Shown here one piece after another: positions 1 to 64,000 of a stretch of 64,000 nucleotides of DNA. The stretch comes from Xiamenia xianingshaonis. GTDB taxonomy: Bacteria; Actinomycetota; Coriobacteriia; Coriobacteriales; Eggerthellaceae. The translations under genes and the position numbers were made by a program. The notes beneath the pieces were generated by a model. It did no database searches and was not told the origin of the DNA. It saw nothing but the letters and a program-made list of their open reading frames with translations. Positions within the stretch are counted from its first letter, which is position 1, and every line of letters starts with the position of its first letter. The DNA is taken from positions 124,001 to 188,000 of the forward strand of contig NZ_CP072829.1 of assembly GCF_017945865.1 (NCBI RefSeq), given 5' to 3'.

Positions 1-3000
1 TCGGTGTCCTACCAAGTCGAGCAGACGCCGGCGACGCGAGAGCTGAGCTGCAGCCAGAAAGAGCATGGGCACGGTGATGCTTGCTACACTGACAAGGCGC
101 TGACCTGCCAAGATGCCGAGCACACCCACGACGATAGCTGCTATATAGCCGTTCCGGCCGTCATGGAAACCAAGACGCTGCAAGCTGTCGACGGCCCCAT
201 TGACGTGACCCCCGGCACGGAGCAGACGCTTACGTTCGGCCTGGGTGCCGAGGAAGACGCCGGCACCGTTTCGGTCGAGAAATTCCTGCAGCCGGCCAAG
301 GAAGAGCCTGCTGACCACAGCGTGTCCGTCGCTTCGGACGACCATCTGTGTTCTATCAGATTCTTGACCGGTCCCGAGACCGCTTATGACAAGAAGACGC
401 ACGACGGCAAGGATATTGATCCTGGCCTGACCGCCTACGGCATCAGCGACTGCTACCTGAGCCGCATCGACTTCAACTACAACAACATCGAGCCTTCGTG
501 GTGCCCGGATTACACGGACAACAACAAGATGGCCGCCACCGCCAACAAGAGCCGCGTCGATGCGCCGGGCGACGCCTTGGGCGAGCTGGTCGTCACCGCC
601 ACCGGTCGTACCGACTGGTACAACTCGGTCGGCAACACCGCCTCGTACGGCAATCGCTGGAACGGCACTGCCGGCTACTACGGCTACAACAACGACTCCG
701 GCCATTCCTATGGCACCAACGAAACCCGCACCCCCTGCGTGCTGCCCTATGTGACCACCTATACCTATTACAGCTACAATCGCGGATTCAACTATTACTA
801 TCCGCACACCAATCTGCTGCACGCTCGCTTGGCGCTGCGCCAGGTGGGCGCCTTCGACACGCGCGGCACCATGGACGGCACGGTGAAGGACGTCAACAAC
901 AGCTACGCTACCAACGTGTGGGGCAACGCAGGCGAAACCAACAAGCTGCGCTATTACGATGCCGTGCGCTCCTGCGCCGCGCTGTCGGTGGCGCGTCCGG
1001 CCATGGAAACGCACGCCTACGTGCGTTACGGCAACGTGGACAATTACACCGGTGCCAAAGTCAGCGACTCCACGGTCAACGACGGTGATCGCGCCGAGGT
1101 CACCGTGCCTTATGGCAAGACGTTCAACTTCTGGACCACGCTGCGCAACCAAAGCAGCGTCTCCAAGCTGGACGACACCGACGTGACCATCGACTTCCCG
1201 GTCGAATGGGAAGTCGACATCAAGGCCGACAAGACTCTGGGCGAGAAGCAGCTCAACGGCGCCAAGATCGTCAATGGCAAGATCAGCACGTACACGGGCT
1301 TCCACGCTATCGACTATCGCATTTCCGGTGCCTATATCGCCACGTTCCCGGCCGACAAGATCGGCAAGATTCGCATCTTCGGCTACTCGCCGAAGCAGAT
1401 CAGCGCGGGGGTTCGGCAGGAGAATCCTGGTGCGAAGCTGAACGTGCGCAAGCTGGTGCTGAAGCCGTACTACGAAGGCGACCGTCTGGCCGGCTTCGAG
1501 CTGGACTACACGACCGGCAAGCAGGCCCTCGACCCCACGACCGTGCGCAGGTTCCCGCTGGAAGCCAACGGCGACTTCCACCTGACCGAGCGGCAGGTGG
1601 TGCAGCTGGGCATTCAGGTGCCTACGCAGTTCCAGCTGTGGGGTTGGAAGGACATGCAGGAAGACCTGTTCCAGGGCGACATTCCGCAGGCCACTGAGAC
1701 GACCACCGTCCTGTCTCCATCCATTGAGAACCAGAAGATCCACATCAAGGGCTTTACCGACAATTACTTCGAGTCGCAGCGCACCATCACGGTGACCACG
1801 GCCAACCATTTGGATTGCTTCCGCGATGCTCCTCTTGACCTGCCGTCCATTTCCGAAGGCGGCAAGTTCTCGAACGGCGAGTACATTTTCAACAACGCGG
1901 AGGACGACTACACCATCTCTCGGCGGGATCGTTCGCTCTACTTCGTGTCGAAGATGTACTACGACGTGGTGGCTCGTTCGGCATACGCTGACGTGTTGAG
2001 CGGCACGCCCGTTGAAGAACCCGACAGCAAGGTGGACGAGCGCCCGGTGACCGAGCGCGCCGTCACTGACCTGAAAGGCAATCCGGTGGTGTTCGAAATC
2101 GGTCCCGATCCGGACGTCATCAAGGAAGGCGACGTCGATTCCGACGGCAACCGGCTTGAACCGACCGTGTTCTACAAGCGCGAACTGGACGTGAAGCCGG
2201 CCCAGCTGAAGGTCACGGAAAAGAACCTCGAAGACCCGACGAAGCCCGACAGGGTGTATGTCTCCGAGATCGAATTCAAGCGCAACGACGAAGGCGCCGT
2301 TGCCGCCATCCAGTACATGGACGTCGTCTATAACGAACAAGGCGAAGTCGTGGCGAAGACCGCGAAGGGCGAGTTCATCGACGTTGTGCAGTCGGTGGAC
2401 GAGCACGGCGTCATCACGCTGACCAGAGCCGCCGATCCCCACGAGGTGCTGGGCGTGTTCCTGCTCACCGAAGAGAGCGGCAGCAGCGATAGCGTGTACA
2501 AATATATCGAGATCCCGCAGGCAGACGCGTTGTCTGCGCAGAATAGCGGCACGCAGCTGTACATCAAGAAGGACGACAAGTTCCTAGAGGTCAAGCTGGT
2601 CGAATACACCGAAGCGGTCGCCGGCGAGAAGGAGGACGAAGAAACCGACGACAACGAGACCGATCCCAAGTCGAAGACCACGTTGCGCTACTGGATCAGC
2701 GACAAGCTCGTCATGGACCAAATCGCCAACGAGACGTCGACAGACGCGAACAACAAGCCTCTGGTCGACGAACATGGCAAAGTCATACTCTTCGAGAAGA
2801 ACACCGCGAAATGGATGCTGCGCAACGAAGGCTATGACGTCATTGTCAGTTACGCCAGCAGCGATCCGGTGTACGACTCCGATGCGTATGACGCGGACGG
2901 CAACTTGAAGGAAGACGCGAAGCCTTTGAGCGCGGCCGTGCCCGAGGGCTGCGTCATCAGCGTGACGCCTCAGTCCAACGGCGGCGAGAGCAGCAGCAAT

Positions 3001-6000
3001 GCGGTGAGCGTGGTCGTTTCCACTGGTCCGACCGTTGTCAAGCCCGAAGTCGACCCGAAGGATCCGCAGCAGGTCGTGGGCATGCTTGCCACCGAGGCCA
3101 CTGCGAAGCTGGTCGAATGCGACTACGAGGTGAAGGCCGACGGCATTACGTACGTGTACAGCGACGAGGTTGAGCAGAACAAGGTCATTTCGATTAAAGT
3201 GATTATGAAGCCCACCTATGAGCCTACCGTGAACGGCGGTGAAACGGTTCTGGACGACAAGGGCCAGCCCGTCATGCAGAAGGTCTCCAACGGTCAGGTG
3301 GAGTTGGTCGTGTCGCTGGGCAAGGATCACTTCAAGGACATCCGCGCGCTTATTGAGAACGATGCGAGCACGGCCGATATCAAGAAGGCGCTGAATGAAG
3401 CCGGCTACAACATCAGCACCGTTGAAGAGGTGTACAGCGACGAGGTCGAAGCGGGCCGGGTGCTCGAGGTTGGCTTTGACGACAATGGCGCGAAGGCTCC
3501 CTATGTCATCGATGCGATCGCCGGTGTTCCGTTCGGCTTGGATCAAGGCAAGAAGAGCGAGTACGAAGCGGCGGTCGAAGCTTACGAAACAGCTGAGCGA
3601 GAATATGCGGAGTGGTTCGAACGCACGCCTGCGGATGGCCTGTTCGAGGGGCCGGTCGACCCGACTGGAGCGCTAGTACCAGAAAACGACTTGGTACTGT
3701 ATGTGAAGCGCGGTACGTCGCTGGTGAAGCTCGTCGAAGTTACCGACGAGTACGGTGCGGCGTACCTTGTGGCCGAAGACACCCTGCAGGACAACAACGA
3801 CCTGCCGCATGCCGTCCAAGTGAAGCACAAGGTGAACGGCGTCGACACCCCGGCGTTTGTCGATTCCACCAAGCTGCAAGACAAGAACAACGCCGACAAC
3901 ACGTTGATCGCCGTGACGCAGCACGTTGTGGAAGACGCCACGGGCTACGTGGATCAGAGCAGGCTGGAGGCTTCCCCCGCCGATACGACCGGCAAGTGCG
4001 AAGTGACCGTCAGCGAAAGCGGCGTGGACAAGACCTACTACGTCGGCCAGACCGACATCCTGGACACGATTCCTCAAGGCGCTGTCGGCGTCACCTTCGT
4101 CGAGGTGTCCTATGTGGACGAGTATGACGTGACGCGCTATGTCGACGGCGTCGACCTGCGCCTGGACGCCACTGACGGCAACTTGTTTGCTGTGACGGTG
4201 CCCGGCGGCGCCAGGAAGTACGTCAGCTATCAGGACGCCGACCTGTCCACCTTCGACAAGGACGACGAAGGCGTGCTGTTCTTCGACAAGAACGGCAATC
4301 GCGTCGAGGCTGGCAAGGGCACGCTGTTCGCAACGGTCACGTTGCCGGTCGACAAGGTCGACAAGGACGGCCAGACGGCCTACGAAGCGACGGTGGCCGA
4401 CGGCGGCGCCGGCCAGAAGAAGATCATCGCCCTTGAAAGCGACGAAAACGGCCGCAAGGTGTATCGTGGCGAGGACGGCCGCTTCATCGTGGAGGTTGAA
4501 ACGAGCATCGACGGCACGACGTCGGTGTGCTACGACAAAGACGGCGTTCCGACGTACTTCGCCGGTCCGAGCAAGAAAACGAAGGTCCAGGGGATCACCT
4601 ACAAGCTGGCAGACGGCACGGTGATGGTCAAGGACGTCGACTTCCGCATCGACGGCGACAGCAACACGGACGGCAAACCCATTTACACCGACATCCGCGT
4701 GGGCTCTTCAACGGAGAACCAGACGATCGAGCTTGTCCCTGAAATCGAGACGCGCGACGAATATTCGTTCACCCTGCCGGTCGAGGTGACCGTGCAGGTT
4801 GGCGGCGGCGTGCGCACCTATGTCGACGCCGAGGGCAATCCGGTGACCATCGAAACCGACGCCGAGGGCGACTGCCTGTACGACTCGAAGGGCAACCGCG
4901 TGAGCGCCGCCGGCTATTTTGCGAGCCGCGACGAGAACGGCCGCATGATCGTGCGCTCCGACGACGGCACGCGCGTCTATTACGACAAATACGGCGAGCT
5001 GGTCACCATGGCGGACGAGGAAGCGGGCACGTGGTCTGAAAACGCGCCGGAGGAAGTTGGCGACAGGCCGGAAAACACGCTGTACCACCAGGCCGGATCG
5101 AACCGCTGGTACGACTACCGTTCTGATGGTTCGGTGGTGCTGGGCGACGACGGCCTGCCGGCCAAGCTGGACGTTCCGGGCACGTACGACGGCACCGAGC
5201 CTATCCTGTATCAGTACAAAGACAATGGCGAGTTGGAGCTTGACGCCAACAACAATCCCATCCCGAGGTACACCTATGTCTACACCAGCGCCACCGGAGA
5301 CAAGGCGCTGTACACGACCGATCTGACGGGGCCCTTCTTCGTGAAGACCGATGCGGGCGCGTTTGAGCAATACGACTCCACGAAGCACGGCGACTTCGTG
5401 ACGAAGTGGCAGGTTGAGCCGTCGCCGTCGCGCCTGGTCGCCGGCGACGTGAAGCTGGTTGTTTCGAAGGGCCGCCACCCGGGCAGCATTGAAGCCGACG
5501 AGTTGGCGAGCGACTACCGGGGCAAGACGCTGGACGAAGCGGTGCGGGCTTTGCAGGAAAAGGGCTATGAGGTGAACTTCACCTATACGGGTGAAATGCC
5601 CGATGGCAAGTCTGTTGAGAAGCAGGTACTGACAAAGGACTTGGTAGAGTATGCGTCTGAGGATCAGAAAGCCCAGATGCTGGAAGTCACCGCCACGGTA
5701 AACGACGTCAAGAGCACGTTTTATGTGGACCTTAACGGCGTTGTGAAGGATTACCCGGTCGCCATGTACGACGTCGGCAAGCTGCCCGAAGGCGCGAAGC
5801 CGCAAGACTACACGACGGTCACGTATGCCGAAAAACTGGTCGCCCAGCCAGGCGAGATTCCTGCAGGCGTCACGCTGACGATGGACAACGTCGAAGGCGA
5901 CGGCGTGCGCGGCGAGCTGTGCGACGACGATTCGCTGTACACGCGCGTCCCCGCCGGCGACGGTGCGGAAGAGAAGCTGGTCGGCCTGGTCGTGCGCGTC

Positions 6001-12000: not shown

Positions 12001-15000
12001 TACTATTCCACGCCCACGTTCGGCAAGCAAGCCGGTCGCTATGACGGCGCCGACTCGCGTCACGTGCTGGATGTTTCTGTCAGCTCGAAGGATCCCAACA
12101 CCAACAAACTGAGCGAGTACCTGGACGAGACGGCCGCCTATCGAATCGCTCACAAGATCGGCACCATGGACGTGTCCATGGTGCGTGGCCGCAAGCTGTA
12201 CGAGCCCAATGAGCCGCTGCAGTACGGCACGAGGACGGTGGACAACGCGAGCCAGCCTGTCGAGAAGGACACCGTGTTCGCCTATGACGCCGACGAAGTG
12301 TCCATGACCAGTCCGTTCAGCTACAGCACCGACCCGGTCACCGGCAAGCCCATCAACGCGAGCCACGACATTCCGGACGGCGCGCTGTACGCCGGCGACT
12401 ATGTGGAATACCAGCTGTATGTGGGCGCCGCGCTGAATTCCATGCTGCCGCTGCAGCACGTGGACGCGCGCTTCAAGGTCGAAAAAGGCCAGCGCATCGT
12501 CGGGTGGGAAGTGCTGACGGACCCGAACAAGGCTGAACACGAGTTCACCGATGCGAAGAACGGCACGCACAACTCGTCTGACGGCCAGCTGAACACCGTG
12601 GGCACCACCGTGAACGCGGTGACCCTCGGCGTGACCGCTGACGACGGCAGCGTAATCTACAACACCATCAAGGACGAAGGCACCGTTGAGGCCACGCTGA
12701 AGAAGAGCGACGACGGGATCACCGGCTTCACCTACCAGCAGGACGGCAAATCGGTGTCGGTTGTCGTGAATAAGTCGAAGAAGCTTAAACCATCGGGCCT
12801 GACCATGCTGTTCGACGCAGCTGACAAGGTGGTTGGTATGTTCGGTAAACCTACTTGGTCGCAAGACAATACCGAATTGCCGACGCCGGTTGTGCTTGAG
12901 ACTGAAGGTGACGCCAACACCGTGTACATGGTCATACCCGGCGTCACGGCCGACCCTGAGGAGAAGGCTGCCGTCACTGCTACGTTGCTCGACGGCGACA
13001 ACAAGATCACGATGCAGGATGCGCCGGCGTCCACCGACTTGACTCGGATTGAGCACAACCCGCTGAAAGAATACAACGACAGCCTGTCCGACGACGACAA
13101 ACGCCTGGCCACGAAGGCCGTTGCCGAAGACAAGAATCGCAACGACGGCGAATACAAGGTTTCCAACCGCCAGCTGGTGTTCTCGGTCGGTTCTCAGACG
13201 CAGCAAATCGCTGCCGGCGAAGGCGTGTACATCCGCGTCATCACGCAGATGACCGACGAGTGGGAAGCTGCCGACTACAGCTCCAAGAAGAACAACGCCT
13301 TCACGGACCAGCTCGACGCGGACGCGCCGACGTCCCGCGGAAAGCAGGTAAGCGCCGAATTCACGGCAACCGCTTCGCCGCGCCACGGCTACACGCAGTA
13401 CTACGTGGAGCAGCGCGACAACAGAAACGACAACAGCGAGGAAGGCGAGTACAAGACGCTGTACGACGAAGGCTTGTACGGCCTGGTGTACCACCATCCG
13501 CTGAAGATGACCGCCAATCTGACGAACCGTCAGCAGTACGGTGCGAAGATCACGTCGAAGGTGCAGTTCTACCAGCACCGTGGCGGCAGGCACAACGAGC
13601 AGTACACCACCGCAGCGCCGGCGCTCGATGTGGTGCGCAGCGACCGTTCTCCGGTCGTAGGCCACGACGACACGGCCGGCCGTTTGGGCGGCCTGGCCGA
13701 CGGCACTGCCATGGTGGCGCTCGGCAGCAAGACGGCCCATGCCTATGACGGCAGCAACTGCCTGGCCGGCAAGATGGGCAACTGCTCCAGCAGCGGCCTC
13801 CGCATGGAGAGCAAGCTTGACAACCACGACACCGTGGCCATCAGACTCGCCTTCAAGCAGCATTCGGTGACGCGTTCCTATGCCGGCGCCGTGGACGCCG
13901 ACCAGGACGGCAACCCCATGACTGCCACCATTACCGGTCTGCGCAACCCCACGTGGCACACCAACGACATCACGGTGACGACGCGCTTTACGGAAAGCTT
14001 CGACGCCACGAACCAAATTCCTACGGGCCGCCGCATCTTCGAGGTGTATGGCCACAACATCGCTTACCCGGACAATCTGCTGGAAAACACCACGAGCGGC
14101 ATTGTTCATGACCCGCTGCAGCAGAACCAGACGACGCTGGACGATCTGAAGGGCAACGAAAAACCGGCGACCAGCCAGGGCCGCAAGAACATCAAGATCG
14201 AGTACTACGTCCCGTTCACCGAAGACCATATGAACACGGTGAACTACTCTGGTGAGGAAAAGGCCATGCGCCGCACGCAGGCCAAGAAGGCCATTGCCGA
14301 TGCGTGGAATGCTGCCCTTGAGGCGCTGAAGAAGGAAGTCGACAAGTCGTATCCGGGCAAGGATGCGTCTGAGGCGTTGCTGAACTACGCCTCCGCCAAG
14401 CGCGCCTGCACCGAAGCGGAGCAAGCCAAAAAGGCTGCCGAAACCGCAGAGAAAGACGCTCGAATCGCAGCGAGTGACGCTGCCGAGGCAGTGACCGACG
14501 CTGAAGGGGACAACGAAGAAAAGCTGACGCTGAAAGGCCAGAAGGCCGACGCTGCCACGGAGGCGAAGACGGCACAGACCGATGCTGAAAATGCGGTGCG
14601 GAAAGCGCTGCAGGATAAGAAAAACCTTGATCGCGACGCTGATCCTGAACTCTACACGCAGGCGGAAGACGATATTAAAAAAGCCGATGAGGCTTTGAAG
14701 CTGGCCGACGCCAACTGGAAGAAGGCGGAAGAGGAATCCAAGCAAGCCGATGCGGACAGCCGGCAGGCGACGGACGCTCTGACTGCCGCCCAAACGGCGA
14801 AGACCACCGCCAAGACCGCGCTGACGAATGCTGCCAAAGCGCTTGAAGACGCCGAGAGAAACCTCGAAGAGAAGCAGAGGGAGCTCACGGAGGCCCAAGA
14901 CGCCCTGAAAACGGCAATGGACACGGCGAAGGACGAAGCGCAAAGGGAATATGGTGACAAGGCAGGGGCTTCTGGTGGGAGTGAGCTGGCGAACGAGGTT

Positions 15001-18000
15001 GACAATACTCTGAGCCTCAAGAATGCCGCCGAAGAGGCGTACAATGCGGCGCTTGCTACAAGCGAAGCAGACCTGCGCGAGTGGAACGAAGCCAAGAAGG
15101 CCATCACCACGGCCATGGCAACCTTGAAGGCGGCGCAGGAAGCGCTCGACAACCTGGGCACCTCTGCCACCAAGACGCAGCAGTACGACGCCGAAAAGCG
15201 TGTGAAGGAAGCCAAGAAGGCGCTGACCGAAGCTGAAACTGACGCCCGCGCGAAAGGCACCGAATACGCTGGCACGCAGGCGCTTACTGATAGTAAGAAG
15301 GGCGACCTCGACACCGCGACAACGAGCTACAACGACGCGGTGACTGCGAAGGAGAACTACGACAACGGCGTGACTACCGCGCAAGAGGCGCTGGACATCG
15401 CGACTGAAGCGCGCAGCAAAGTCGTCAATGCCCTGGCAGACACGACCGCCTACAACAAGGCTATCGAGACCGTCGAGGCAAAGATCGCCGACGAAGAGGA
15501 TTACGTCGTCAGAGGCAGCGGCGAGCCGATAAATGACGAGGCGCTGGCCCAGCGCGCCGCCGATCTGATGAACAAGTACGAAGATGCCGTGCAGATCGTC
15601 GAAATCGACGGCAAGGCCGTCGGCGCCTGGTTCCGCGAAGACCAAGACTGCCGGGCTCTGGCCGTGTTCATGTCTTCGCGTGACCATCTGGTTGCCGGCA
15701 CCGACAACGTCTACGACATCAACCTGTTCCGCGAGGTCACCGGCATGCGCTGGACCTACTACGACATTCCGGCCACGCAAAACGGCCGTACGCCGTATGA
15801 GTTGAACGACGTGCAGCTCAATGGCGTCATCCGTTTCAACGACACGCGCACCAGGACTACGAGTCTGACCGACATCAACAACAAATATTCCGGCGGAACG
15901 GCAGTGGACGTGGCGTTTACGCATTACCACAAGGAAAAGACCACGCTCGACTTCCGGAATCCGCTCTATACGAACGAGCATTTGAGGGTTGAGGCCAACT
16001 ACAACGCTTCGCGGGACGTCGAGCATGGCACGTGGCTGACGAAGCAAAACGATGCACACGCATCCAACCCCATGACCGCCTTCCGTCGCGTGCCGAACGC
16101 GCAGTTCCAAAACCAGGTGTTCCAGACGCACGACGAAGCGGTGAGCACCTACAATTCCAACGCTCCTCAGAAGACCGGCTATGTGGCGGGCGAGACGTTC
16201 TGGTACCGCAACACGCTGACCAACGCGCGCATGGAATTCGTCCAGCGCGAAGGCTCGGGCACCTGGAGCATCGCCAAGGGCACGTTGACGTCCACCAACC
16301 ACGGTCCCAGATCGGTTTCTTCGCAGCAGTACGACGTGGATCTCGCGAGAAATAATTCGCTGCACTGGAACTGGCGCGTGTCGTCCGAGGGCAACTACGA
16401 CTACTTCACCTGGAACATCAAGCGTCAAAACCCGGACGATTCCTGGACCAGCGTTCACAGCTATGCCCTCAGCGGGTATGCCAACACGTCCTTCTCCATC
16501 AACCTGGAAGCGGGAAGATATCGCGTTACGTACGCCTATAGCAAGGACGGCAGCGTGAACACGGGCGAAGACTTGGCGCAGGTGTGGAACATTCACCTGG
16601 GCGACGGCAGCGATGGCTACATCCACGGTGGCGTCACCTACAACCCGGGCGAGGGCGGCTCAACCGTTCCGGGCGCTCCCACCGGTGGTATCGACGCCAT
16701 CCCGGACAATGCCGGCACGACGCTTTCCATCCCGAACACCAACGAAGAGTCTGCGGGCGAGGGCGAAATCTACAATGTGGTGTTCTACGAGCGCATTCCG
16801 CTGGAATACTTGAAGCAGGCGGATCCGACTGCGTATTCGACCGATGCTGCAAACAACCCGGTCTCGAACGGCGGCTCTATGAAAGCCGGCGCCGACATTG
16901 ACGAAGACTACCTGGAGAAGGTGATCGCCGACAATACCAAGTGGATCGACCGCTACGGCCACGACGTGCTTGAGCGCCGCACGCGCAACCTGAAAGTGCA
17001 GGTGACGATGATCGGCACCGAGCAAGGCGAAGCGCCCGACCTGAAGCCGAAAGACAAAGACTATGGCGGTTCGATGAACTACGTGTCCGAGCCGCGAGGC
17101 ATCTGCACGTGGACCGACGTCAATACGCCGTGCCGCGACGGCGGAAGCAGCAAGTACACCTTCGGCAAGACCTACAACGACCTTGTCCCGACAGGGAACG
17201 GCGTGTCGAACACCACGACGTATGGCCTGTTCAAGATCGAGTGGGTGCGCGACGAAACCAAGGCTGCCCAGACCGATCCGCGCGACACGCGCTTCTTGCT
17301 CCTAAACGAGTTGCAGAGCGGTTCTCAGCTTTCGACGTACGACACGCTGCTGCGTCCGACCGACCGTCCGAACGCCGGTTCCACCGTCATGGAAGTGGGC
17401 GACATCGTGTCCATCGCGTTCCCGGTGCGTGCGTCTGAGCACAAACTGCCGCAGGTGTACAAGAACCTGACCGATTCCACTACCACGGCCAAGGATGCCG
17501 ACGGCAACCCGAACACCACCGGATTCAAGCCGGCGTACCTGCCGCGCATGGGCGAGTACTACTTCAGCAGCTACCACCTGCACTGCGGGCATCCCGGCTG
17601 TGCGGCGGGCAGCTTCTTCACGTTCCCCGGACCGGGCGTTTCCGATTTCGGCCTGTCCAACTATCTGCACGACACCATGCGCGTGCAGACGCAAAACGTG
17701 CTGATGGACATGGATTCGCTCATCCACGAGTCTGCCTTTACGTCCGACAAGCCCAAGCATGTCGACACCTACGACATGTACAACCATGCCTACACGTTCA
17801 TTCCGGGCACGGCGTCCAACACGAAGAACGCCTCCTACATCCACGAGACTGCGACCGATACCGCTGGCTGGGAGAACGCCACCGACTATGGCTCGTCCGG
17901 TTCGAACAACCAGTTCATGGACGCCGACGTCATTACGGCCAACAACAAGCAGAAGGTCAGCTACCTGATCACCGGCAAGCCGGGCGGCGCGACGGGCACC

Positions 18001-48000: not shown

Positions 48001-51000
48001 GACGAACCCGCAAGCAACAACCCGAGCACCACCGCCTGGGACGCCTACCAGCTCGACCCGACGCGCGGCCTGTCCGACGCCAACACGAAGACCACGTATA
48101 ACGCGAAGCCTGACGACAACCTCACCTATACCGAGGTTACCGAAAACGGCACGCCGCAATACACCGCCGAGGTGCTTCGCTCCACAGAGACCAACGACAA
48201 GGGCGAATTCACCTTCCCGAACCTCATGTCGCAGGAATACCGCTACTTCAAGAAGATTTCGGGCGGCAGCGAGCCTAACACCGCGCAGCCGGCGTTGTCC
48301 TACGACGATCTCGCCGAGGCTGCCAAAGACGGCAACACCACCTTCGAGGCTGTTGCCGCGAACTACGTGAAGCGGCTCGTCATCTATGGCTACAAGGTGC
48401 GCGTCACCGACGAGCGCTGGTGGAACCGCTACGACGGCACCGCGAAGTACCAGGTGGACAAGGGCAAGGACGCATACGCCGACACCTACACGCACGACTC
48501 CGACCTCGTGTACGAGAACGGCTACCTGATGGCTGAAGACGAGTACGACGTGCTGCTGCAGCAGGTCAACGGCGCGTCGCCCATTTCGAACCGCAAGTGG
48601 GCGCTCGACTCCAACAACATGAACAGCGAAGTGAACAAGACGCTGCCTGATGCCTACCAGGCCGCGACCGAGGCCACGGCGGCCACGGAAACCGGACCGG
48701 CCGTCCCGGCCGAACCCGCCAAGGTGCTCTACGACCTGGCGCTTGGCAAGGATCGTGCGTCCAACGACGCCGGCCTGCGCGAGCAGGTGTTCAAGAGCAT
48801 CAGCGGCATCGTCTGGCAGGATGCGGACGGTTCGTTTACCGAACTTAATACGGAAACAGATTACAATGGCCTGCAGAACAAGCTGAACGAGACGAACGGC
48901 GAGCAAGGCATCGCCGGCAAGCGCGTCGTCCTGAAGCAGTGGTACTTCGTGCCAGAAAAGGGCGCTTGGTATCAAAATGAGAACTTCGGCAACGACCTGT
49001 ACACGAAGGCCGCCACAGGCTTCACCACCGAGAAGGTGTCCGAAAACATTCAAGCCATCGAGAATGCCACGTTCTACACAAGCAACGCTGGCAAGGGCGT
49101 CTACACCGCCACGTCCGCCGGCGATGCGACCCTCGCAAAGGGCCAGTATCTGTTCAACAACCTGCCGACCCGCTACACCGAGCCTTACCAGCCCGGCACG
49201 GTGGCAGCCAACGGCGACAAGACCAAGCCGGTCATCGGCAAGGAATACCTGGCCGGCTACACGGTGGAGATCGAAGGCGGCAACGAGTCTTACCAGATGC
49301 AGGGCCTGCCGGCCACGCAGCTGGAGCCCAGCGCGAGCGCGACTGACGAAGCCATCAACTCCAAGGTAACGAGCGCCCAGCGCACGCTTGGCATCGCGAA
49401 CGCCAAGGTGAAGGGCATTGGCGGCGCATCCGATACCGATGCGACGGTCTACGCCGAAACCAACTACCCGGTGCGTTGGAAGGACGCCACCGCCCAGTAC
49501 GTCTACAACGAGACGACCGAAGGCGAAAAGAGCATCACCGACAGCAAGCACACGATGGACTCGATGATCGTGCTCGCCGGCAAGGCCGACGACGACAAGG
49601 CAACCCAGCGGTCCATCACGGACACGACGGGCAAGACCGGCTACGCCGCCGAAACTGCGAACAGCGACATCTCCTTCGACTGGTCGCTCGGCGTCGACGC
49701 GCTCGACATGCACGCCGGCTTCGGCCAGTTCGGCACGGCCAGCATCAAGGGCTTCGTGTTCCAGGACAAGGACATCAACGGCTACTACAATCCGGCTTCG
49801 GGCGATCTGCTCGATGGCGCATTCAACCTTGACAAGATCGACGAGGCTGAAAACGACAAGCCGTTGAAGGATCAGACGCTCAGCATTCAGCAGTGGTTCT
49901 ATGTGCCGGATGAGGTTGGCGAGGATGGGTCCGGTAACACGACTTACTCCTATAACAAGATCATCACCGACCTGGTGAAGGCCGGCTACAACAAGGTCTA
50001 CATCGGCGGCGAAACCGATCCGGCGAAGATGGCAGACAAGTACCAGCTGCCTGAGCTGACCCCCGTCTCCTACAGCAACAGCGAGCCCGCTGCTGGTCAG
50101 TACATGCTGGTCAACAAGATCTCGAAGGCCGACATCGACCTGACCGCCACCGACGAAGGCGTGTGGGTGCGCGCGAGGTCGTTCGACTACACGAGCGAGC
50201 GCGACGTCACGAAAGACGGCAAGACCGAGAAGACCGCCTACACCGGCACCATGTCCGACGAGAACGGCGACTACGAATTCTCCGAGCTGCCCACGTTCGT
50301 TTATGTGGACACCGTCAAGCGTGAAGTCGCTGCCGACGAGGCCGACAACGAGGGCGGCGAGCCGAAACTTGCCGAAACCGCAACGTTCGGCGACGTGCAG
50401 CCGTACTATCCGGATCCGCAGCATGTAAAGAACTCCGCTGCCGAGGCGGCGCAGGTGACTGCCGACCGGATCTTCCTGGCCGGCTACCGCATCACCGTCG
50501 GCCGCACCGAGCCGGCATACGGCTTGGCCTATCCGCACAAGGGCGAGAACATTGCAGCCGCTGCCGACGATCCGACCACGCCTGACGTGGACGAATCGAA
50601 GGACGGGGCTACCCGTACAAACGACTCCGACGCGCTGCGTGAATCTGAGAACTCTGCGGTCGTGAACCTGTTCGAAGAGGTTCAGGGCGAAGGCAAGCCG
50701 GTTGAAACGGACGCGCTCGACGCTGCCGGCAACCCGTTGACGGGTTCCTACGCCGACCGCACCGACGGCTACGTCATCGTGTCTGCCGAACTGAAGGATG
50801 GCGACAGCTCCATCAAGGGCCAGCTCTACGACGGCACCGAGACGCCGCTCAGTGGCGCGGCCAACAAGAACACGCTCGCCGGCGGCCAGTACCAGTACGG
50901 CGACTCCAAGACTGACCACGAATACAGCACGGTTGCCTTCTACAACCACAAGTACTACGACATCCCGCGCCCGGTGAAGAGCGTCCGCGGCGGCGACCTG

Positions 51001-54000
51001 GGCCTTGTTGAGCTGAAGTATGCCGACGTTGCCGGCACCATCTTCAACGACGAGAACTACGACGGCATCCAGGCCAATGGCGAACGCGGCATTCCGGGCG
51101 AGAAGGTCATGATCACCCAGTGGTACTGGAAGATCACGAAGACCGAACCGAACGCGCAGGGCGATGACGTCACGGTGGAAGGCGAATGGGTGCGCAACCC
51201 GAACTTCGGCTACGACGTCCACACTGGCAACTGGGATATGAAGACCGACGAGGTCAAAGAACCTGACAACTGGAAGTGGACCGACTTCCGCAACGGCATC
51301 GTGTCCGTTACCACCGACGCGAACGGCGAATACCGCTTCAAGAACCTGCCGGCGGTTGCCACTATCAACACCGCTGACTCGACGGCTGACGATCCGTCCT
51401 ACGAGTACTACCTGGCCGCGTATCGCGTGACGCTGCCCGACACGAAGACTGACCCGGATACGGATCAGAATACTGGCACGCAGCGCGAGAACCAGTGGCT
51501 GCTTACCCGCTACGACGCCAACGCTAATGACTGGTCTGGCGACGGGAACAACTTCAACTCCGACGTGAAGTCTGAAGACGATGTGTGGACCTATGAAGGC
51601 ACGGTTGACGGCAAACCTGTCAAGTACTCCGGCATGAAGGTGGCCGGCCATGCGTCCACGACCGAGGTGCTTGCAGGCAGCCTCGAGAACGACGTCAACG
51701 GCAAGAAGCGCGCCAAGGTTCACGAGCGTCCGAACGACGGTCAGATCATCCTGGCGAAGCAGAAGACGAAGGACGGCAACTCGAACAATGTGGTGACGGT
51801 TGTGAACTCTTCGCCCGACCCCGCCGACACGACGAAGTCGATCGAGAAGCAGAACACCGTCAGCGAGCTCGATACGAGCGTCACCTACGACTGGATGACC
51901 ATCGACACCGAGCTTGATAAGAACGGTCAAGAAGTTCTCGACGCGAACGGCAAGCCCGTCGCCAAGACGTTCTGGGCTGGCAACATCGGCGAGGTCGAGC
52001 CGAACCAGGGCAACACCATTACGGGTGTTGTCTGGGAGGACGTTGACGTTCGCAACAACGGTATCCAGGATGTTGATGAGTTCGGTAACACTACTAACTC
52101 CGGAAATGGAACCAACCCGGTCAAGGACCTGAAGGTCTCGCTCGAGCGCTACTACACCGTGGTGGAAGACACTGCGGCTGGCGATTGGGACAAGGCTGCC
52201 GTTCCGACGAACAAGGTTGCCGAGAACAACAGCGGCATCGAAACCGCTGCACTGACCGAAGACCAGGCGGAGGCCGCCACGTGGGTCTACGACGCCGATT
52301 GGTCTGACGACAACCGCATCATGGACAACGCGGACGTTACCAACAAGGGCGACCGGTACAACAACGCGACCAACTGGACCATCCCCGGCGTGGGCAAGAC
52401 TGACGTCGAGGATCCCAATGATGACACCAAGCTGGTGTGGGGCGACAAGACCTACGCCAACACCGAGACCGCGAACAACGGCACGTTCACGTTCAGCGGC
52501 CTGCGCACGCACGACTACCGTGACGTGGACGGCGACGGCGTCGACGAGCTCGTCATCTACGGCTACAAGGTGCGCGTCACCGATGATAAGTTCCGCAGCC
52601 GTAACCTCGCGAGCACGGTCTACAAGACGCGCATCAACAGCGCCACGTACACGACCGACTCCGACCTGGTCCACCAGACCGGCTATCTCATGGGCAAGGA
52701 CGAGTACGCCGTGCTGCTGAACACGTCCGAGAGCCAGACCTACGCTACCGACTGGTTCAATACGAAGGAATACCAGAACGAAGGCGATCGCATCGTTCTG
52801 GAGAATCAGGCGAAGCGGTCGCAGCCGAGCAACGTGAAGCTGGCGCTGGCCTCGCAGAACAAGAACCAAGACACCGAAGACAAGCACGGTCGCACGCCGG
52901 CCGCCACCTATACCGCCGACGAAGAGAGCGTCTACGCCGACGCGCAGGCCACGACGAACGCCAAGCCCGCGAAGCTGTTCTACGACCTGGCGAGGCCTGC
53001 CGACCGCGCTCACAACGACGCGGGCGTCATGCCCATCAAGACGCAGAAGATCAGCGGCTACGTCTGGCGCGACGCCGACTACGACGGCAAGATCGGCGAC
53101 TACGGCTCCGCCAGGTTCTCCGTCAATACGATGGACGACATGATGAAGGACGACTTCAAGGAAGAAGGCCTCGTCGGCAAGACCGTCACGCTGAAGCAGT
53201 GGTACTACGTGCCCGCTGAAGACGGCACGGGCGAGTGGATCCTCAATCCGACGCCGACCACCAAGAACGATGCCGCTTACATTACCGACGGCGTTGCGAC
53301 CACGACGACGCAGCCTGCCAACGACGCTGCCAACACGAAGGACGGCTACTACGAGTTCGCCGACCTGCCGGTGTACATCCCCGTGGACGGCCACGAATAC
53401 CTGGCCGGCTACACGGTCGAGGTCAAGGGCGGCTCGATGGTCGGCGAATCCGACGCTGTCAGCTACCCGGTCACGAAGAACGAAGCGACGAAGGGCCAGA
53501 CCGATTCCGAGGTGCGCGTCATCGGCACGACGCTGACGGCGGGCAATTTCAACCGCCTCAATGGGGCCACCCTTGAGAAGATCCGCGTCCACGACGAAAC
53601 GAACTACCCGCTCATCTGGAACGCCACGACTGGCCAGGCCGCTGCGGAAGACGACGAAACGCAGAACATAGTGGCCGGCTATCGCGTGTCCGGCACGAAC
53701 ACGTCGAACAGCACGGTCGACGGCATGATCGTCCTGGCGGGCAACGCCACCGACGACGAGGCAGCCAAGGCTGCCGAGCAGCAGCTGACCGAGACGGACT
53801 ACCGTCGCGACATCACGCGCGGCACGACGAGCGTGCACTTCGACCTGGCTACTGGCCGCGACGAAGACGCCTTGAACGCCGGCTACGGCTTCTTCGGCAG
53901 CACTGCCATCGACGGCGTCGTCTGGCGCGACACCGACTTCGACGGCATCTTGAATGCCGAGAACAACAAGGACGAGCGCATTGCCAACCAACCGGTCCGC

Positions 54001-57000
54001 CTGACCCAGTGGTACTACCTGCCGGGCAATGGTGGGGAAGATGACACGAACGCTGCTGGTCAGAAGACCTACTGCTTCGAATCCACGCCGCAGTATCGCC
54101 ACGAAGGCACTGGCCTGGTGGTCGAAGTCCTGCCGGCCATGACGTTCGCCGGCCTGACGAACGAAGACATCGAGCTGGTCTACAGCGGCTCCAATGCCGT
54201 CAAGGGCGCCTGGATCCGCAACAAGAGCTTTGGCAAGACCATGACGTGGTACAAGCTGCCTGGCACGGTGTCCACCGATGGCAGCGGAACCACGTTCACG
54301 GTTGATGCGGCGGCTGGCCTTGTGCTGACCGGCACGACGTTCGACGTGCCCAACGACAACGTCGAGCTGGTGTACGACGAAAACGTCTCAATGGGGGTTG
54401 TCGCTGCTTGGGTTGCCAAGAGCGAGCTCGACATCAACGACGTCGCCGCTCTTGCGAGCACCAGAGTTGAAACCAAGACTCAGTGGCTCGGCTACCAGGA
54501 ACTGACGACGAATGACGGCGGCGGATACTCCTTCGCCGGCCTGCTGCCGTCCGTCCAGTTCCATGCCGAAAACGGAACGGCCGTGTCGGTACATCCGGCC
54601 AATATGACGCCGCAAAACGACGTCGTGGCCCTGGCCGCCTACCGCGTCTCCTTGCCCACGATGCCCGAGAACCACGTGCTGACCGCCTACCACACGAGCG
54701 AGGAAGATCCGTCGGCCGGCGCCATGAACGCCGACTCCGACGCCAAGCGCGACCTGCTGCGCGGTCCGCAAGACATGACGAGTGCTGCGGCATATCCGCA
54801 GTTCAAGGCTGAGGGCGAGCAGTCCGACAACGACTACGCGCACGCCACCGGCTTCATCGTGGTGGCGAACAGCGACACCGACAACAGCAGCTCCTATCTC
54901 GGTACCACGCAGACCGACGGCCTGAACGCGCGTTACGTCACCGGTGACGGCGTGAGCAAGGTCCATACCAGCAACCCCGAAGCTGCTGCTGGCCTCGCCA
55001 ACACTGCCTACGACGCCGTCTACCAGACTGCTCGCCCGGACGTGAACCTGGGCCTGTACAAGGTGCCCACGAGCGCCATCAAGGGCTACATCTGGGACGA
55101 CACCGTCTACGACGAAGAGAAGGCCTCCGACGGCATCCAGAACAAGCTGAATCAGGACGGCCAAGAAGGCTCTGAGCCCGGCCTGGCCAACCAGCCCGTG
55201 GCCGCCACCCAGTGGTACTACGTCCCGGCCGACCACCCGTCCTTCGAAGACATCACGGGCAATGCGCCTGCCGGCACCGTCGAGCGCGTCTACGCAAACG
55301 GCGAACTGCCCAAGAAGTCCCTGGCCCAGCTGGTGACGAAGGTCGACAGGGTCGAGGTCAACGCGGCCGACAACCTGATCGCAAAGACCAAGGCCACGGT
55401 CAATGCTCGCAACGAAGTGCTCCGCACGCAAAACGTTGTCGAAGGCCTGAACAATGCCGTTATCGACGCCTATGCTGCGCTGAATGAGGCCAAGCACATT
55501 CTTGCAACTGGTCGCAGCGCCGATGACGACCTTGAACCGGCGACGCAGACGCTGGATGACGCCGCGACGGGCGATAACGCCAATGACGCTCTCGAGCAAG
55601 CGCAAGGCACGCTGGACACTGCTGCGAAGGCTTTGGACGAGCTGAAGAATCTCGCCGCCGATCAGACGATCGAGGGCGTCATCGCCAGCCTGAACATTGA
55701 GACGCAGCAGGATGACGTGGATCGGCTGCAGGCATCCATCCGGACGCTCGACGAGAAGAAGAAAGCTGCCGAAGATGCTCAAAAAGCCTTCACGCAGGCT
55801 GAAACGGCGCTCCAGAACAAGAAGGCCGACGTCGATTACGACAGCATGGAGCAGGCGTTCGAGACCGCAAAGCAGAACAACAACTACGACCAGGCGGTCA
55901 CGAACAAGAAGAACGCCGAAACTGCGGCTTCGAATGCCGAGTCTGCCTACACCCAGGCAATGGAAGCCCTTGAGGGCTATGAGGCAGCGAAGCAAGCCTT
56001 GGATGCTGCCAACGCGGCTCTGGAAAGTGCAAGCGATGACGAAAAGGCTGATAAGGAAAAAGCCGTTGCCGATGCCCAAACTGCGCTCGATAACATCGTG
56101 AACGCCGAGCTTGCCAAGAACGAGGGCTTCAAGACCTTGAGCGATGCCGCCAACACCGCCAAGACCAACCTCGAAAACGCTAAGACCGCGCTCGAAACCG
56201 CCGAAAACGCCATCAAGACCGCGAAGGAGAACTTCGAGGGGGCTAAGCAGGCAATTGCCACCGAGCAGGAGGCCTACAACAACGCGGCCAAGCAGAAGAC
56301 CGAAACCGAGAACGCTTACAACAGTGCTCTTGCCACTGCTAACCTGCCCGGCTACGACGGCGGCAAGGACCTCGACAAGATCAAAGCGCATTACGAAACC
56401 GCGAGTCAGAACCTCGCTGCTGCTGAAGCCAGGCTTGCAGTGCTTAACGTCGCCAAGGATCTTCCGACGCTGCAGACTGCGATCAATGCGGCCAAGGCGG
56501 CCCTTGACAACAACGATGAGTCCGAAGCCGTCAAGGCGCTGAACGACGGTCTGGATGCGGCGGCTGCCATCATCTCCGGCAAGAGCGATCTGGAGACAGC
56601 TGCTACTGACTTGAGCGAGGCGCAGCAAGCCCTTGCCTCGGCCTACAACGAGCTCGATACCGCCAACAGCGACCTGGCCAACGCCGTCAAGCAACTGGTG
56701 AAAAGCTGGATCGCGCAGGCCGACAACGCCGAGCTGACCAAGGCGAACACCACGAAGAACAGCGTCATCAAGATCATTGCGGCCGATGGCGAACTGAAGT
56801 CGCAGTTCGACAATCGGATCGAGACCACCAAGGTTTCCGATGACGCCGAGTCTGTTGTTGGCGCCTGGGTCCAAAACGTCACGTTCGGCAGCGACTTCGT
56901 CACCACCACGGGCTTTGGCACCGGAAACCAGAAGCCGGTCGTCACAAACGGCACGTCGCAGACGGACGTTCGCCACGCGCACAGCGTCGTCGGTGTGGAG

Positions 57001-60000
57001 ACCGCCGACGCCATCTACGAGATGGAGGGCGGCAAGGTCAAACTCAACGAAAACAAGGAACCTGTTGTCGAAGATGCCAGCAAACGCGGCCTGTATACCT
57101 TCGACAACCTGCCCACGGCGGTCGTCCGCACCAGCGCGAGCGGCCAGGACGAATACTTCCTTGCCGCCTACCGGGTGGAACTGGAAGACGTGAAGAGGGA
57201 GATCGGCCTTGGCCCGTGGCACCTGACCACGATGTATCAGGGCGGCGCGCGCGAAACCGATTCCGATTCCTACAAGTTCAACAAGGGCATTGCCGGCAAG
57301 AATGCCGACGGCAAAAAGATCGTCGGCAAGTACCAGATCATCAGCCGCTATCCGGTTGGTGACAAGAGCTATGATGCGACCAATCTTGACGACGGCATGC
57401 TTATGCGTGCCAACAGCGGCCAGGTCATCCTTGCCGACGCGGTTAAGAACGCGAACGGCTATCAGGGTCGTTACCTCAGCCTGACCGGCGACCAAGCCTT
57501 CGAGTCCACCGATGCCAACACGTCGGTCACCTACCAGTGGGCCAATCTGCATGAGAACGACGATGCCAACCCCTTGCCGAGCGAAAAGACCGCTGGCGAC
57601 GTCGGCGAGATCATGCCGGCTACCAGCTCCATCAGCGGCTACGTCTGGCAGGAAAACAAGCGTGACGGCTTCTACAACCACGCTGATTCGTGCGACTACG
57701 AACGTCAGGAAAACAAGATCGAGAACGATCCGAACTCCGACAAGCATGAAGCGCCCGGTTTCGATGAAATCCTGCGCGACGACGACAACAACCTTATCGA
57801 GCAAATCCATTGGGACACCGAAATCGGCTACTACCAGGCCGAAGGCGTGGATGCGAAGAAAGTGTTGCTGCGTCAGTGGTACTTCGTGCCGGCCGACGAC
57901 GAGAAGTTCGATGGCATCCTGAAGGCGTACAACGAAAAGACGCTGCATGACACGATCGAATGGGTCACCGAAGATGGCGAGCCGGTCGATGACACGGTTC
58001 TCGCTTCGGACAGCCCCACTGGCGTCACCGGCGTGTGGGTGCAGGTGAAGAACTTCGGTGACGACGAAGCTTCTGAAAGCTTCCGCGGCACCGAAAGCGA
58101 TCCGTACCATGTGAATGACCGGAACGCCCGTGTGACGATCTCCTTGCCTGCAAATGAAGACCAGGGCTTGCTGGCTGGCAACTATTCCTTCAAGAATCTG
58201 CCGGTGCGCATCGTCGATGCTGACGACAACGAGTACATCGCCGGCTACACGGTTTCGGTGCTGGGCGATCCGGGTCTGAAGGTGACGGCCACCCAGGCTC
58301 AGCTGGAAGACACGCCCGATCCGTTCTTCGATCCCAAAGAGGATGGCGAGAGCGTCGATCCGGACGATTGGAACTCCAATGCGCGCGCCAGGAACACACT
58401 GGGCACGACGCGCTATGACAGCAGGAACTTCCCGCTGGTGTGGAACAAGAAGTATTCCGACGACGGCGCCAAGCACACGATGGACCAGATGCTCGTGCTG
58501 GCCGGCAAGAATGCTGGCAGCCAGTACACGGCGGGCACGTCCTACACGGAAACGATCGGCACCGAAAAGCGGACCGGTTCGGTGAAGTTCGACCTGACCT
58601 ACGGCAAGCGCGAACGTCGTTTGAATGCTGGCTTCATGGACGTGCCGAAGGCGCCCATCAGCGGCATCATTTGGAACGACGCCAACTATGACGGCATCCG
58701 CCAGACCGATGACGGCGCCGAAGAAGGCGTGCCGAACGTATACGTGCGCGTGAAGGCATACTACTGGGCACCGGTCGCCAAGGACGAGAACGGCGAAAAG
58801 AAGTGGGCCTGGGTCAGCTATCCGGAGCTGGGTGACTACGACTACTGCTTCACGACGTCCGACGGCTATACGGCCGAATACGGCATCGACGACGACGGCA
58901 ACCCGGTCAAGATTCTGAAATACAGCGCCAAAAACATCGGTTGCTACACTACGGCCAAGATGCCGACCAGCTTCAACATCGATGGTGTCGACCGCTTGGC
59001 TGGTTATCAGATCGAAGTTATGGACACCGAAGACTATCCGCTGCCGAAGGGTGCCACGCTTACTAAGATTCACGTGGCCGATCCGAATGCGGCGACTTTC
59101 ACCAAGGACATTAGGTCCGAGTCCGACCTGTTCCATACGCAGAGCAACGCTACGTACTTGATGGTCAACCGCGTCGACGACAGCGAAGACGCCGTGACGC
59201 CGAAGTCCGAGCAGATCGAGGGCGTAGACGTGTTGGTGCATCCCGGCGGCGGCATGCGCTACCGCGCCGACGGCATGATTCTCACGGCAGAGCCGTGGGA
59301 TGGCAGAGAGATTGAAGACCAATACAAGTCGGTGTACAACGGCTTGACCTACGACATGCACCTGAACGTTACGGGTTCGACGGGAGCGTCGGGCGGCGAC
59401 GGCGGCCTGATCTTCGTGCCCGCCACGAACCTTGAAGGCATCGTGTGGGACGACGGCTCGCATGACGAGAACGATTCGCTGCTGCCGCGCGCCAACCGCA
59501 AGGACTACAACGGCCTGCAGGACAAAGACGAGAAGGGCCTGGCCGGTCGCGAGCTGTTGCTGACCCAGTGGAAGTACGACAACGCTCAGAAGACGTGGGA
59601 AAAGGTCGACGCGTTCGGCGACGATCTGACGCAAAACGTCAGCTACACGGTGGCGCGTGCGGCCCGCTTGGGCGAGCGCGTGCTTGCCACCGGACATGTG
59701 TCTGCCGCAGCGGTCGAGGGCTACATCATGATGCAGATGGCCGCCGACTACCTGGAGGAAGTCGCTGCTGACGAATCGCTCACTGCCAACAAGCGCGAAG
59801 CGGCTGCCATCGTGCTGTCCGTCGTGCGCAAGGCCGTGGCCGAAGCCGAAGGCACCACCGAGGTGCTGCCGGTCGAGCTGCTGACCATCGCCAACAATGA
59901 CATCCAGGCTCTGGCGACGAGCGATTCTCTCAAGCAGGAGGCGCTTGCCATGGCGAAGGATGCCGTTGCCAAGGCGCTGACCGACACCGTGAACGGCGAC

Positions 60001-63000
60001 ATGGCCGTCTTCGGCGTCACCCCGGAGCCCAATGTGCTCGACCAGGCGTTCCTGAGCGCCAAAGCCGACGCGAAGGCCGCTTCGGTGCTGGTGGTTACCG
60101 ACGACATCGCCAAGCGCAACGCTCTGAACGCTGCCATCGAATGGCTGGCCGCTTACGACGAGGAGCAGGGCATCAGCGAGGCCATGCACAATACGCAGGC
60201 TTACGGTTCTGACGTGACTGACGCCTTGAAGGCCTACCTCACGGTCGAGCTTGGCTTTACTGACGATCGCGCTTCCTGGGCGATGGGCCAACTGCTCGAT
60301 CACGAAGGCAAACGCAGGAATGTCCATATCCAGAAGGCCGACGACGAGATCCGCACCGGCGTTCTGAACGTCAACAAGGACAACGGCGTCGTGTCTACCT
60401 ACACGGGCGACGTGTTCACCAGCGTGGTGACCGACACGGACGGCAGGCTGTCTTACGAGACTGAAATCGTCGGCGACGTGGAGACGCCCGTGACCGACGC
60501 CTATGGCAACAAGGTGCTCAAGACGAACGTCAACGAAACCAACCTGGGCAAGTACTCCTTCAACGACTTGCCGAGCGCCATTGTTTCGCAGGTCGAACAT
60601 GAGCAGGCGGCCGGCGACGCGCAGCTGCCGACCTTCTATGATGCCGTGAAGGGCGAAGAGGGTCAGGTTGAAAGCTATGCTCCGGCCGACGAAGCCGAGA
60701 AGGTCGAGCTGTTTGGCGACACGTATTCGCTCGTGTCCTACCAGCTTGAGATCAACGGCCTTGAAAGCAATGCGGAAGACGGCAACTACGTGCTGACGCG
60801 TTACCATGCGCAGCCCAAGTCTGCTGCCGAGGAGAAGCACTTCGACACCGATTCCGACACGGCCACGTCGGCGCGCTCTGGCTATGCCGGCGGCATGGTC
60901 GTGAGCGATCAGACCACGGCTACCGAGATCAAGGACAACGCAGCCGGCAAACCGACGCTCACCAGCACGCGTGCCAACACGGCGCTGGAGGAAGAGTCCG
61001 ATCCGGCCGACGCGGTTGCCGATCGCCTGAACACAAAGGGCGCCCGCATCATCTTGGCGAGCGAGGGCGTTGCCAAGCCGACTGAGGGCGAGCCTGACGC
61101 TGCGGTGAAATACACGCATCTGGCCGACACCGACGACTATGCCGTGGTGCCCGTCGACCATGTGCTGGCGACCGACTACGTCAGCGACGTGACCGGCGCC
61201 ATCGGGTACGACTGGCTGACCATCGACACCGAAGCGAAGAAGGTCAAGGTCGACAAGCCGGTCATCAAGGGAGACACAACCGGCAAGGCCACCTTCGGCG
61301 AGGTCGAGAAGATCGAAACGGTCGAGGTCGACAAGCCGGCAACCGTGAACGTCAACGGCGGCGACACCGGCATGGTCACCCCGACGAAGCAGAAGATCAC
61401 CGGCATTCTGTGGAACGACAAGAACAACGACGGCCTGCAGACGTTCAAGGTCGAGAACGGCAAACGCGAAAGCGAAGAGGCCCGTAACGGTTACGACGTG
61501 GCCCTGGAGCGCTACTACTTCCTGCCGAACGAGGACGGCACGGGCGAGTGGGTGCTCGACCGCGAGTTCACGCTGGCCACGACCACGGACAAAACGAGCG
61601 GCACGACCGCTTACACCGACGAATACAACAACACGACCGAGACCGGCAAGATCGCACTCGGCCCGGCCACCGGCGCCAGCGCTCTGCTGGGCTTTGGCCA
61701 GGAACTGAGCGCCGACAATCAGACCGTTCTGCAGAACGGCGCCTACGAGTTCGACGACCTTGATCCCGCAGGCCGCATCGACCTGAAAGAGGCGCGCTAC
61801 GACGCCTACCTGCAGAAGAAGGCCGCCTATGACAGCGACAAGGCTGCCTACGATGCCGCTGAGGCGGCTGGAGAATCCGGCCTCGTCGAGCCGACCGCCC
61901 CGACTGCGGTCGAGGCTCCTGCCGAAGGCGCCGAGCCCGACCTGCGGTGGGTCGTCTACGGCTACAAGGTGAAGGTCACCGACTCCCGCGTCGCAACGGG
62001 CCTGCAGCTCAAGTCAAAGTACCAGGTACGGGGACAGAACGGCACGTATGAGAACGACTCCGACTTGGCCGATGATTGCTACCTGACCGCCGACAGCGAG
62101 TACATCGTTCTGCTCGACGTGGTCAACGAAGAAGGCCGCACGGTCGACGGCGAGCTGTCCAACGCCTCCAACATTGTCTTCGCTCCGGCGTCCAACAACG
62201 CCGACCAGCCGGCCGCCTACGTGGCGCCCGCCGAAGAAGGCGAGGAGCAGGGCGAACCCAAGGCCATGACGAAGAACGTCGGCGACTCGGCCCAGACGCT
62301 CGTGGCCTACGACCTGGCCTTCGCCAGCGACCGCGATGGCAACGACGGCGGCATCATCGACCTGCCCACCTACAAGATCGACGGCTACGTCTGGCAGGAC
62401 TTCGACTACAACGGCCTGTACGACTTCGATGACCGCTTCGTCTTCAACTACGTGCGCGACATCTCCGGCGATTTCGTCCGCTGCGACGACAAGGGCAACT
62501 ACTCCTTCATCAAGGGCATCGAAGACGGCCAGCCGGTTACCGTGACTGGCACCGCGGTGCTCCCCACGCTCGAGCATGATCTTGACGCGCTGGCCGGAGA
62601 AGCCACCGAAGAAAGTCCGCTCTATGTCCGCAACACCGACACCGGCTACCTTATGGTGTCGAGCAAGGCCCATGAAGACGGCTACAACGGCAAGGAAGTC
62701 ATCCTGAAGAAATGGTACTTCGATCCGGAGGTCGTGCATCAGGAGCCCGTGAAGGACGAGGAAGGGGTCACCCAGCGAGACGATGCCGACAACATCCTGT
62801 ACAAGGACGTCCAGGGCACCTGGCTGCTGTGGGAGAACGACTACGTGCCGGTCGACTCCACGGTTGCGGCTCCGACCGAGGCCGACGCCAACGCGACGAA
62901 GACCACCGAGTACGGCGACTGGACGACGCCCGAGAAGGTCGAGGTTGAAAAAGCGGACGGCACCAAGGAGAAGGTCAACGCCACGGTTGCCATCCCTGAA

Positions 63001-64000: not shown

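Follow-up and report, generated by a model that had tools for sequence, protein, structure and literature searches.

Does an open reading frame without end in 64 kb of bacterial DNA belong to one real gene, and if it does, what might its product be? The window analyzed here comprises 64,000 nucleotides (G000:C1:124001-188000) and is internal to a single-contig genome of 2,263,463 bases that is 97% complete. The original prediction that one frame, coding for more than 21,333 residues, crosses the whole window is borne out by a six-frame stop count, which gave 0 stops in the 21,333 codons of frame +1 and 594, 547, 788, 21, and 860 stops in the other five frames. The gene is even longer than predicted. 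Extension of the frame in both directions, as had been proposed, located its start and stop, and the complete frame (gene A) runs from GTG to stop at G000:C1:102356-194272 (30,638 codons). A candidate ATG at position 102479 lies behind AAGGAGGAACC / AAGGAGG and is conserved as a start in the relative G002C12; judged by this context it is likely a better start than the GTG at 102356, and would give a product of 30,597 aa. In window coordinates, the ATG is at -21,521 and the stop at 70,272, both outside the window on the plus strand, and the window itself (1..64000, plus strand) is the internal part of gene A, corresponding to codons 7,216-28,548 of the GTG-numbered frame. For the GTG-numbered version of the product, the mass is 3.37 MDa and the pI 4.5.

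Long spurious frames are typical of GC-rich genomes, and here ORFs on the minus strand of the window reach 4,208 aa. These antisense ORFs are a by-product, as their register mirrors the GC-rich third codon position of frame +1 (GC1/GC2/GC3 of 58/41/82%). Could gene A itself be an artefact, created by an assembly or frame error that joins genes, or a frame left open by chance in GC-rich DNA? At the GC content of the window, a stop-free run of 30,598 codons has a chance probability of ~10^-423, whereas gene A has 0 stops in 30,638 codons. Codon usage is even along the gene, with RSCU correlations to the neighbouring ORFs of at least 0.91 in each 2,000-codon window, compared to 0.36 and -0.09 for the shifted frames. 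Moreover, dN/dS is below 1 in every window tested, separately assembled relatives keep an identical collinear order, and the signal segment and sorting signal are confined to the two ends of gene A. We therefore rejected the artefact reading, which the relatives already refute and whose probability we consider close to nil. A chimeric assembly of separate genes in particular is very unlikely, because the gene lies on one contig, both flanks of the locus are syntenic with G002:C12, gene A shares a collinear protein order with relatives from seven other genomes, and dN/dS remains below 1 everywhere tested.

The surroundings of the locus were annotated by eye. Genes resembling tatA/tatC are found upstream of gene A, and hypE-, nikR-, and dnaK-grpE-dnaJ-like genes downstream (G000:C1:194449-206000, L015-L016); the gene order flanking A is identical in G002:C12, and no convincing flank synteny was found outside G002. 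A long inverted repeat, TGCCAATTCGGGC..GCCCGGGTTGGCA, is present in the leader of gene A (G000:C1 ~102240-102290) and has no Rfam match. Around gene A, Rfam identified tRNAs only; near the start, at E up to 5, its single hit was a chance one to Acido-1 on the opposite strand. Scans for promoters and terminators gave nothing in the right orientation. An ORF of 2,309 aa whose N-terminus resembles a signal segment (G000:C1:218745-225674, L016-L017) has transposase-like ORFs on both sides and is missing from the syntenic region of G002:C12, resembling an insertion.

The N-terminus of the gene A product contains a hydrophobic signal segment, MKLPSKVLAIVLSILIGLTSWNSISIAEA, and its C-terminus consists of LPQTSD, a hydrophobic stretch, and RRRR. 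The latter is an LPXTG-like sorting signal, with LPQTSD as a variant at position 5. The whole product was found to contain a single signal segment and a single sorting signal. The expectation of a giant extracellular protein, among the largest of bacteria, was supported. Similar signal segments occur in nearly all of the ~35 family members examined, and all complete family ORFs terminate in a signal of the form (L/F)Pxx(G/S)D-hydrophobic-positive tail, such as the LPQTGD of paralogue B (see below). In the usage profile of the giant LPXTG proteins of Adlercreutzia / Eggerthellaceae, D, E, T, S, and N are abundant and K, R, and C scarce; in the gene A product, D makes up 8.8%, E 7.2%, T 8.7%, S 5.6%, N 6.0%, R 3.6%, and C 0.3%, but K 5.8%. 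Sortase genes are located in the source genome near positions 2176100, 1887529, and 600634, the latter two being sortase-like ORFs. The region near G000:C1 2176100 (L053) has the appearance of a pilus-type cluster, with a sortase-like ORF and pilin-like proteins, one of which ends in LPSTGG. From these signals, the gene A protein is probably anchored to the wall by sortase; as LPQTSD is a non-canonical LPXTG motif, anchoring could be inefficient or require a special sortase.

To describe the domain anatomy, the gene A product was divided into 40 overlapping pieces and scanned with Pfam (all features below are on the plus strand). Almost all pieces were without a match. Apart from three matches to PASTA and several to SdrD_B, the hits were weak. 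The PASTA domains (PF03793) are located at 3367..3468 (E 1.5e-5), 5512..5625 (E 2.4e-8), and 33784..33975 (E 7.6e-6), that is, with E values of 2e-8 to 2e-5. SdrD_B (PF17210) was matched at 31099..31209, and SdrD_B-like domains at 43537..43686 (weak in Pfam, E 0.004, and strong with a family profile) and 58663..58875 (E 5.7e-4). A scan for 50-residue runs without P or G identified a helix-rich, coiled-coil-like stretch at 14647..15144, and similar stretches between stalk domains at 37390..38835. Of the mixture of parts originally predicted in the chain, PASTA, SdrD_B, and coiled-coil-like helix-rich segments were thus recovered, while DUF11 had no Pfam match at E ≤ 0.01. Neither an N2-N3 ligand-binding region nor SD repeats were matched by Pfam in the gene A product, and none of its parts was identified as a binding domain with a known function.

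Two regions can be distinguished along the chain. The first, the head (residues ~130-17,960), is collinear with paralogue B and the relatives, and the C-proximal part of this non-repetitive region occupies 1..32232 of the window. Most of its 400-residue blocks lack self-similarity, and by this comparison the ~18,000 residues of the head are for the most part single-copy segments. It includes the conserved blocks H1 (17203..20715, residues 12,950-14,120) and H2 (28933..32445, residues 16,860-18,030, including the SdrD_B match). The core sub-domain of H1 (residues 13,390-13,509) is single copy in 16 of 17 giants and present twice in the remaining one, and that of H2 (residues 17,000-17,120) is single copy in 17/17. 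A sequence search of the PDB matched the H2 profile to a SdrD chain (E 3e-9) and to nothing else. AlphaFold models of one head block and one stalk block had mean pLDDT values of 40 and 43, too poor for use, and Foldseek searches with these low-pLDDT models returned matches to pilins, integrins, and MSCRAMMs, none of which was significant.

The second region, the stalk, contains 28 SdrD_B-like domains from residue ~17,960 onward according to a family-specific profile. The first 23-24 of these lie in the window (32233..64000), and the array runs on to residue ~30,450 outside it. The domains have a median spacing of 348 residues and a super-period of ~1,400 residues.

The same genome encodes a paralogue, B (G000:C1 1308645-1375538, minus strand), of 22,297 residues. 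Together A and B measure 158.8 kb, or 7% of the genome; they are collinear with a mean identity of ~35%, the best blocks reaching 35-42%. A search of relatives with a head segment turned up further giants. The H1 profile matched 18/138 Eggerthellaceae genomes (5/48 genera), and among 298 genomes sampled across the class it matched no other family. Placement in the Eggerthellaceae rests on the named Adlercreutzia carriers in the same family group: Adlercreutzia muris, A. caecimuris B7, and A. equolifaciens DFI.6.87. The matched frames, all without internal stops, range from ~4,000 to 34,927 codons, the short ones possibly being cut by contig ends. Of the 15 frames assembled from relatives, 14 are complete and one is cut off by its contig on either side. 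The longest relative (G002:C39:9969-114752, L056-L061) has 34,927 codons, and one relative carries three giant genes that take up ~9% of its genome.

Comparison of the giants suggests how such length arose. In each of nine long giants, with lengths of 22,174-34,927, the number of stalk domains is 27-28, where counts vary with the profile threshold and one or two domains may have been missed or split. Alignment of the domain strings gave 26-28 collinear pairs with gene A, nearly all of which are best overall matches, and the median domain spacing across the long giants is 310-502 residues. Short relatives (~8,000-13,000 codons) have 5-9 SdrD_B-like domains, or 19 in the case of G026. Because 27-28 collinear domains are retained despite the differing lengths, the stalk array was probably already fixed in an ancestor common to them, and length would have been gained inside and between domains without the addition of repeats. 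A constant, near 1:1 collinear stalk of 27-28 domains in the long giants is apparently a new observation. It also bears on whether the product works as one fibre or is processed into numerous fragments that make up a coat or matrix. In favour of cleavage, full-length export would be demanding at such a size, and one chain mixes PASTA, SdrD_B, and helix-rich parts; yet the chain has a single signal segment and a single sorting signal, and the constant number of stalk domains suggests one working object. We consider cleavage into many pieces improbable.

Selection was estimated from synonymous and non-synonymous divergence. For B and its orthologue, dN/dS is 0.24-0.36 per 2,000-codon window (0.20 in the final, shorter one), and for A it is 0.30-0.69, which at the level of codon substitution demonstrates purifying selection along gene A. 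Synonymous divergence itself is uneven. Flanking genes of the same genome pair have a dS of 0.18; the stalk is mostly at 0.25-0.6, with high dS also at residues ~26,400-27,600 of the A stalk, and the head is at ~0.7-1.2 in A and 0.8-2.1 in B. The synonymous divergence of the heads is therefore ~4-7x that of the neighbouring genes, to be read as "much larger", as head dS is near saturation and the exact values are soft. At the gene ends of the two giants, dS is near background (0.31 and 0.26 in the first ~600 codons, 0.21 and 0.13 in the last ~600). In the H1 tree, A groups with G002C39 (support 90/92), and in the stalk and C-terminus trees with G002C12 (100/100 and 91/91). Because head dS is far above that of the flanks and the gene ends are near background, intragenic recombination is the simplest account, by which the present heads would be older, divergent alleles that either came in by replacement or were retained. 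Head divergence with near-background gene ends, read as allele replacement, is apparently new.

The starts of several giants have a second peculiarity. In G002C39, 13 consecutive G separate the signal segment from the long frame, and the two are not in the same frame; the out-of-frame segment upstream of this G13 reflects an OFF phase or else a mistake in the assembly. Among the giants whose starts could be read, the start zones (30.7 kb) contain 11 runs of at least 8 G/C and the gene bodies (1.12 Mb) contain 5, an enrichment (odds ratio 80, p 2e-14) for which the test is partly post hoc, as the start zones were defined after G002C39 had been seen, and in which related sequences are not independent. 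The runs in the start zones are all poly-G on the coding strand, 8-13 long, where draft assemblies can miscount such lengths, and some precede the likely start codon. Poly-G tracts of 9-11 close to likely start codons were seen in L142, L143, L139, L081, and others (G064, G061, G003). Neither A nor B of the source genome carries a poly-G tract. Because the effect size is large, chance clustering of poly-G at gene starts is unlikely despite the post hoc zones. We propose that these tracts are a putative signature of slipped-strand phase variation in relatives, which would be new.

Taken together, we favour, with a probability of roughly 70%, the reading in which the window covers the central part of a single functional gene, whose product of ~30,600 residues would be a head-exchanging surface fibre, exported by Sec and probably anchored by sortase. 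In the mechanism suggested by these features, the product would be exported by Sec, its C-terminal stalk linked to the wall by sortase, and the stalk would project the distal head off the wall as a long fibre. The head may bind mucus, host, or other cells in adhesion or recognition. Phage, host, or partner recognition would put pressure on the head to differ, and divergent head alleles would be swapped between species by recombination within the conserved gene ends. In several relatives, slippage in a poly-G tract at the gene start can probably turn the giants on or off, a tract that gene A does not have. Instead of a mucus or host adhesin, the protein might mainly serve in defence, as a shield from phage or the immune system or as a decoy for them, or in kin recognition. 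Its head alleles are replaced and diversified as in antigens exposed to phage or antibodies, putative poly-G switches are present in several relatives, and a preprint reports reversible inversions of capsule gene clusters by which E. lenta evades phage (PMC13174815); adhesins under antigenic selection would, however, show an equal pattern, and we regard the shield reading as rather unlikely. More tentatively, at somewhat less than even odds, the giants could form a class of single-polypeptide organelle that swaps heads, is phase-variable in several relatives, and combines a stalk fixed at 27-28 domains in at least 4 genera, lengthened by insertions and not by extra domains, with heads of up to ~18,000-20,000 residues.

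Few bacterial proteins on record reach the size of the gene A product, which comes from a single-contig genome and a group with cultured species that is open to experiment. The family shows that recent repeat expansion is not required for bacterial giants, and makes head exchange and on/off switching of giant proteins directly testable. In size, gene A is comparable to the Chlorobium protein of 36,806 residues. A giant ORF of the Omnitrophota, in Velamenicoccus, encodes 39,678 aa with 42 predicted TM helices and is poorly conserved (PMC10066038); it, too, is comparable to the gene A product in size. Gene A shares SdrD_B-like domains with the B-repeats of Staphylococcus aureus SdrD, and differs in having 28 such domains with long insertions, and in that the SD repeat and MSCRAMM A-region were not found.

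Giant1-5 of Apilactobacillus kunkeei (3,000-8,000 aa; PMC12863079) are likewise giant extracellular proteins that take up ~6% of a small genome and undergo intragenic recombination; unlike gene A, they have an N-terminal beta-solenoid, form a tandem cluster, and belong to lactic acid bacteria. The giant adhesin of Mobiluncus mulieris, with 7,651 residues and 51 Ig-like domains that are every one cross-linked (PMC10619420), is also an actinobacterial giant surface protein of beta-domains, but is four times shorter than the gene A product. Closest are the two giant LPXTG genes of A. equolifaciens DSM 19450 (Toh et al., 2013; PMC3778203), which have homologues of 37,689 and 61,890 bp in A. equolifaciens subsp. 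celatus (PMC8142583) and are absent from a swine isolate (PMC4599084). The announcements of these genes (PMC3778203, PMC8142583) do not describe domain order, head exchange, or poly-G tracts. Gene A differs from the Adlercreutzia giants in being in another genus according to the genome grouping used, longer (30,597 aa), and terminated by LPQTSD instead of LPXTG. They have in common giant single frames, two per genome, a C-terminal LPXTG-type signal, and the same family, where homology is tied through the DFI.6.87, B7, and A. muris genomes and not through AEQU_0093/1251 themselves. Because the A. equolifaciens genes were published in 2013 (PMC3778203), this kind of protein is already known, and gene A is a larger new member of the known, hardly studied giant surface proteins of the Eggerthellaceae.
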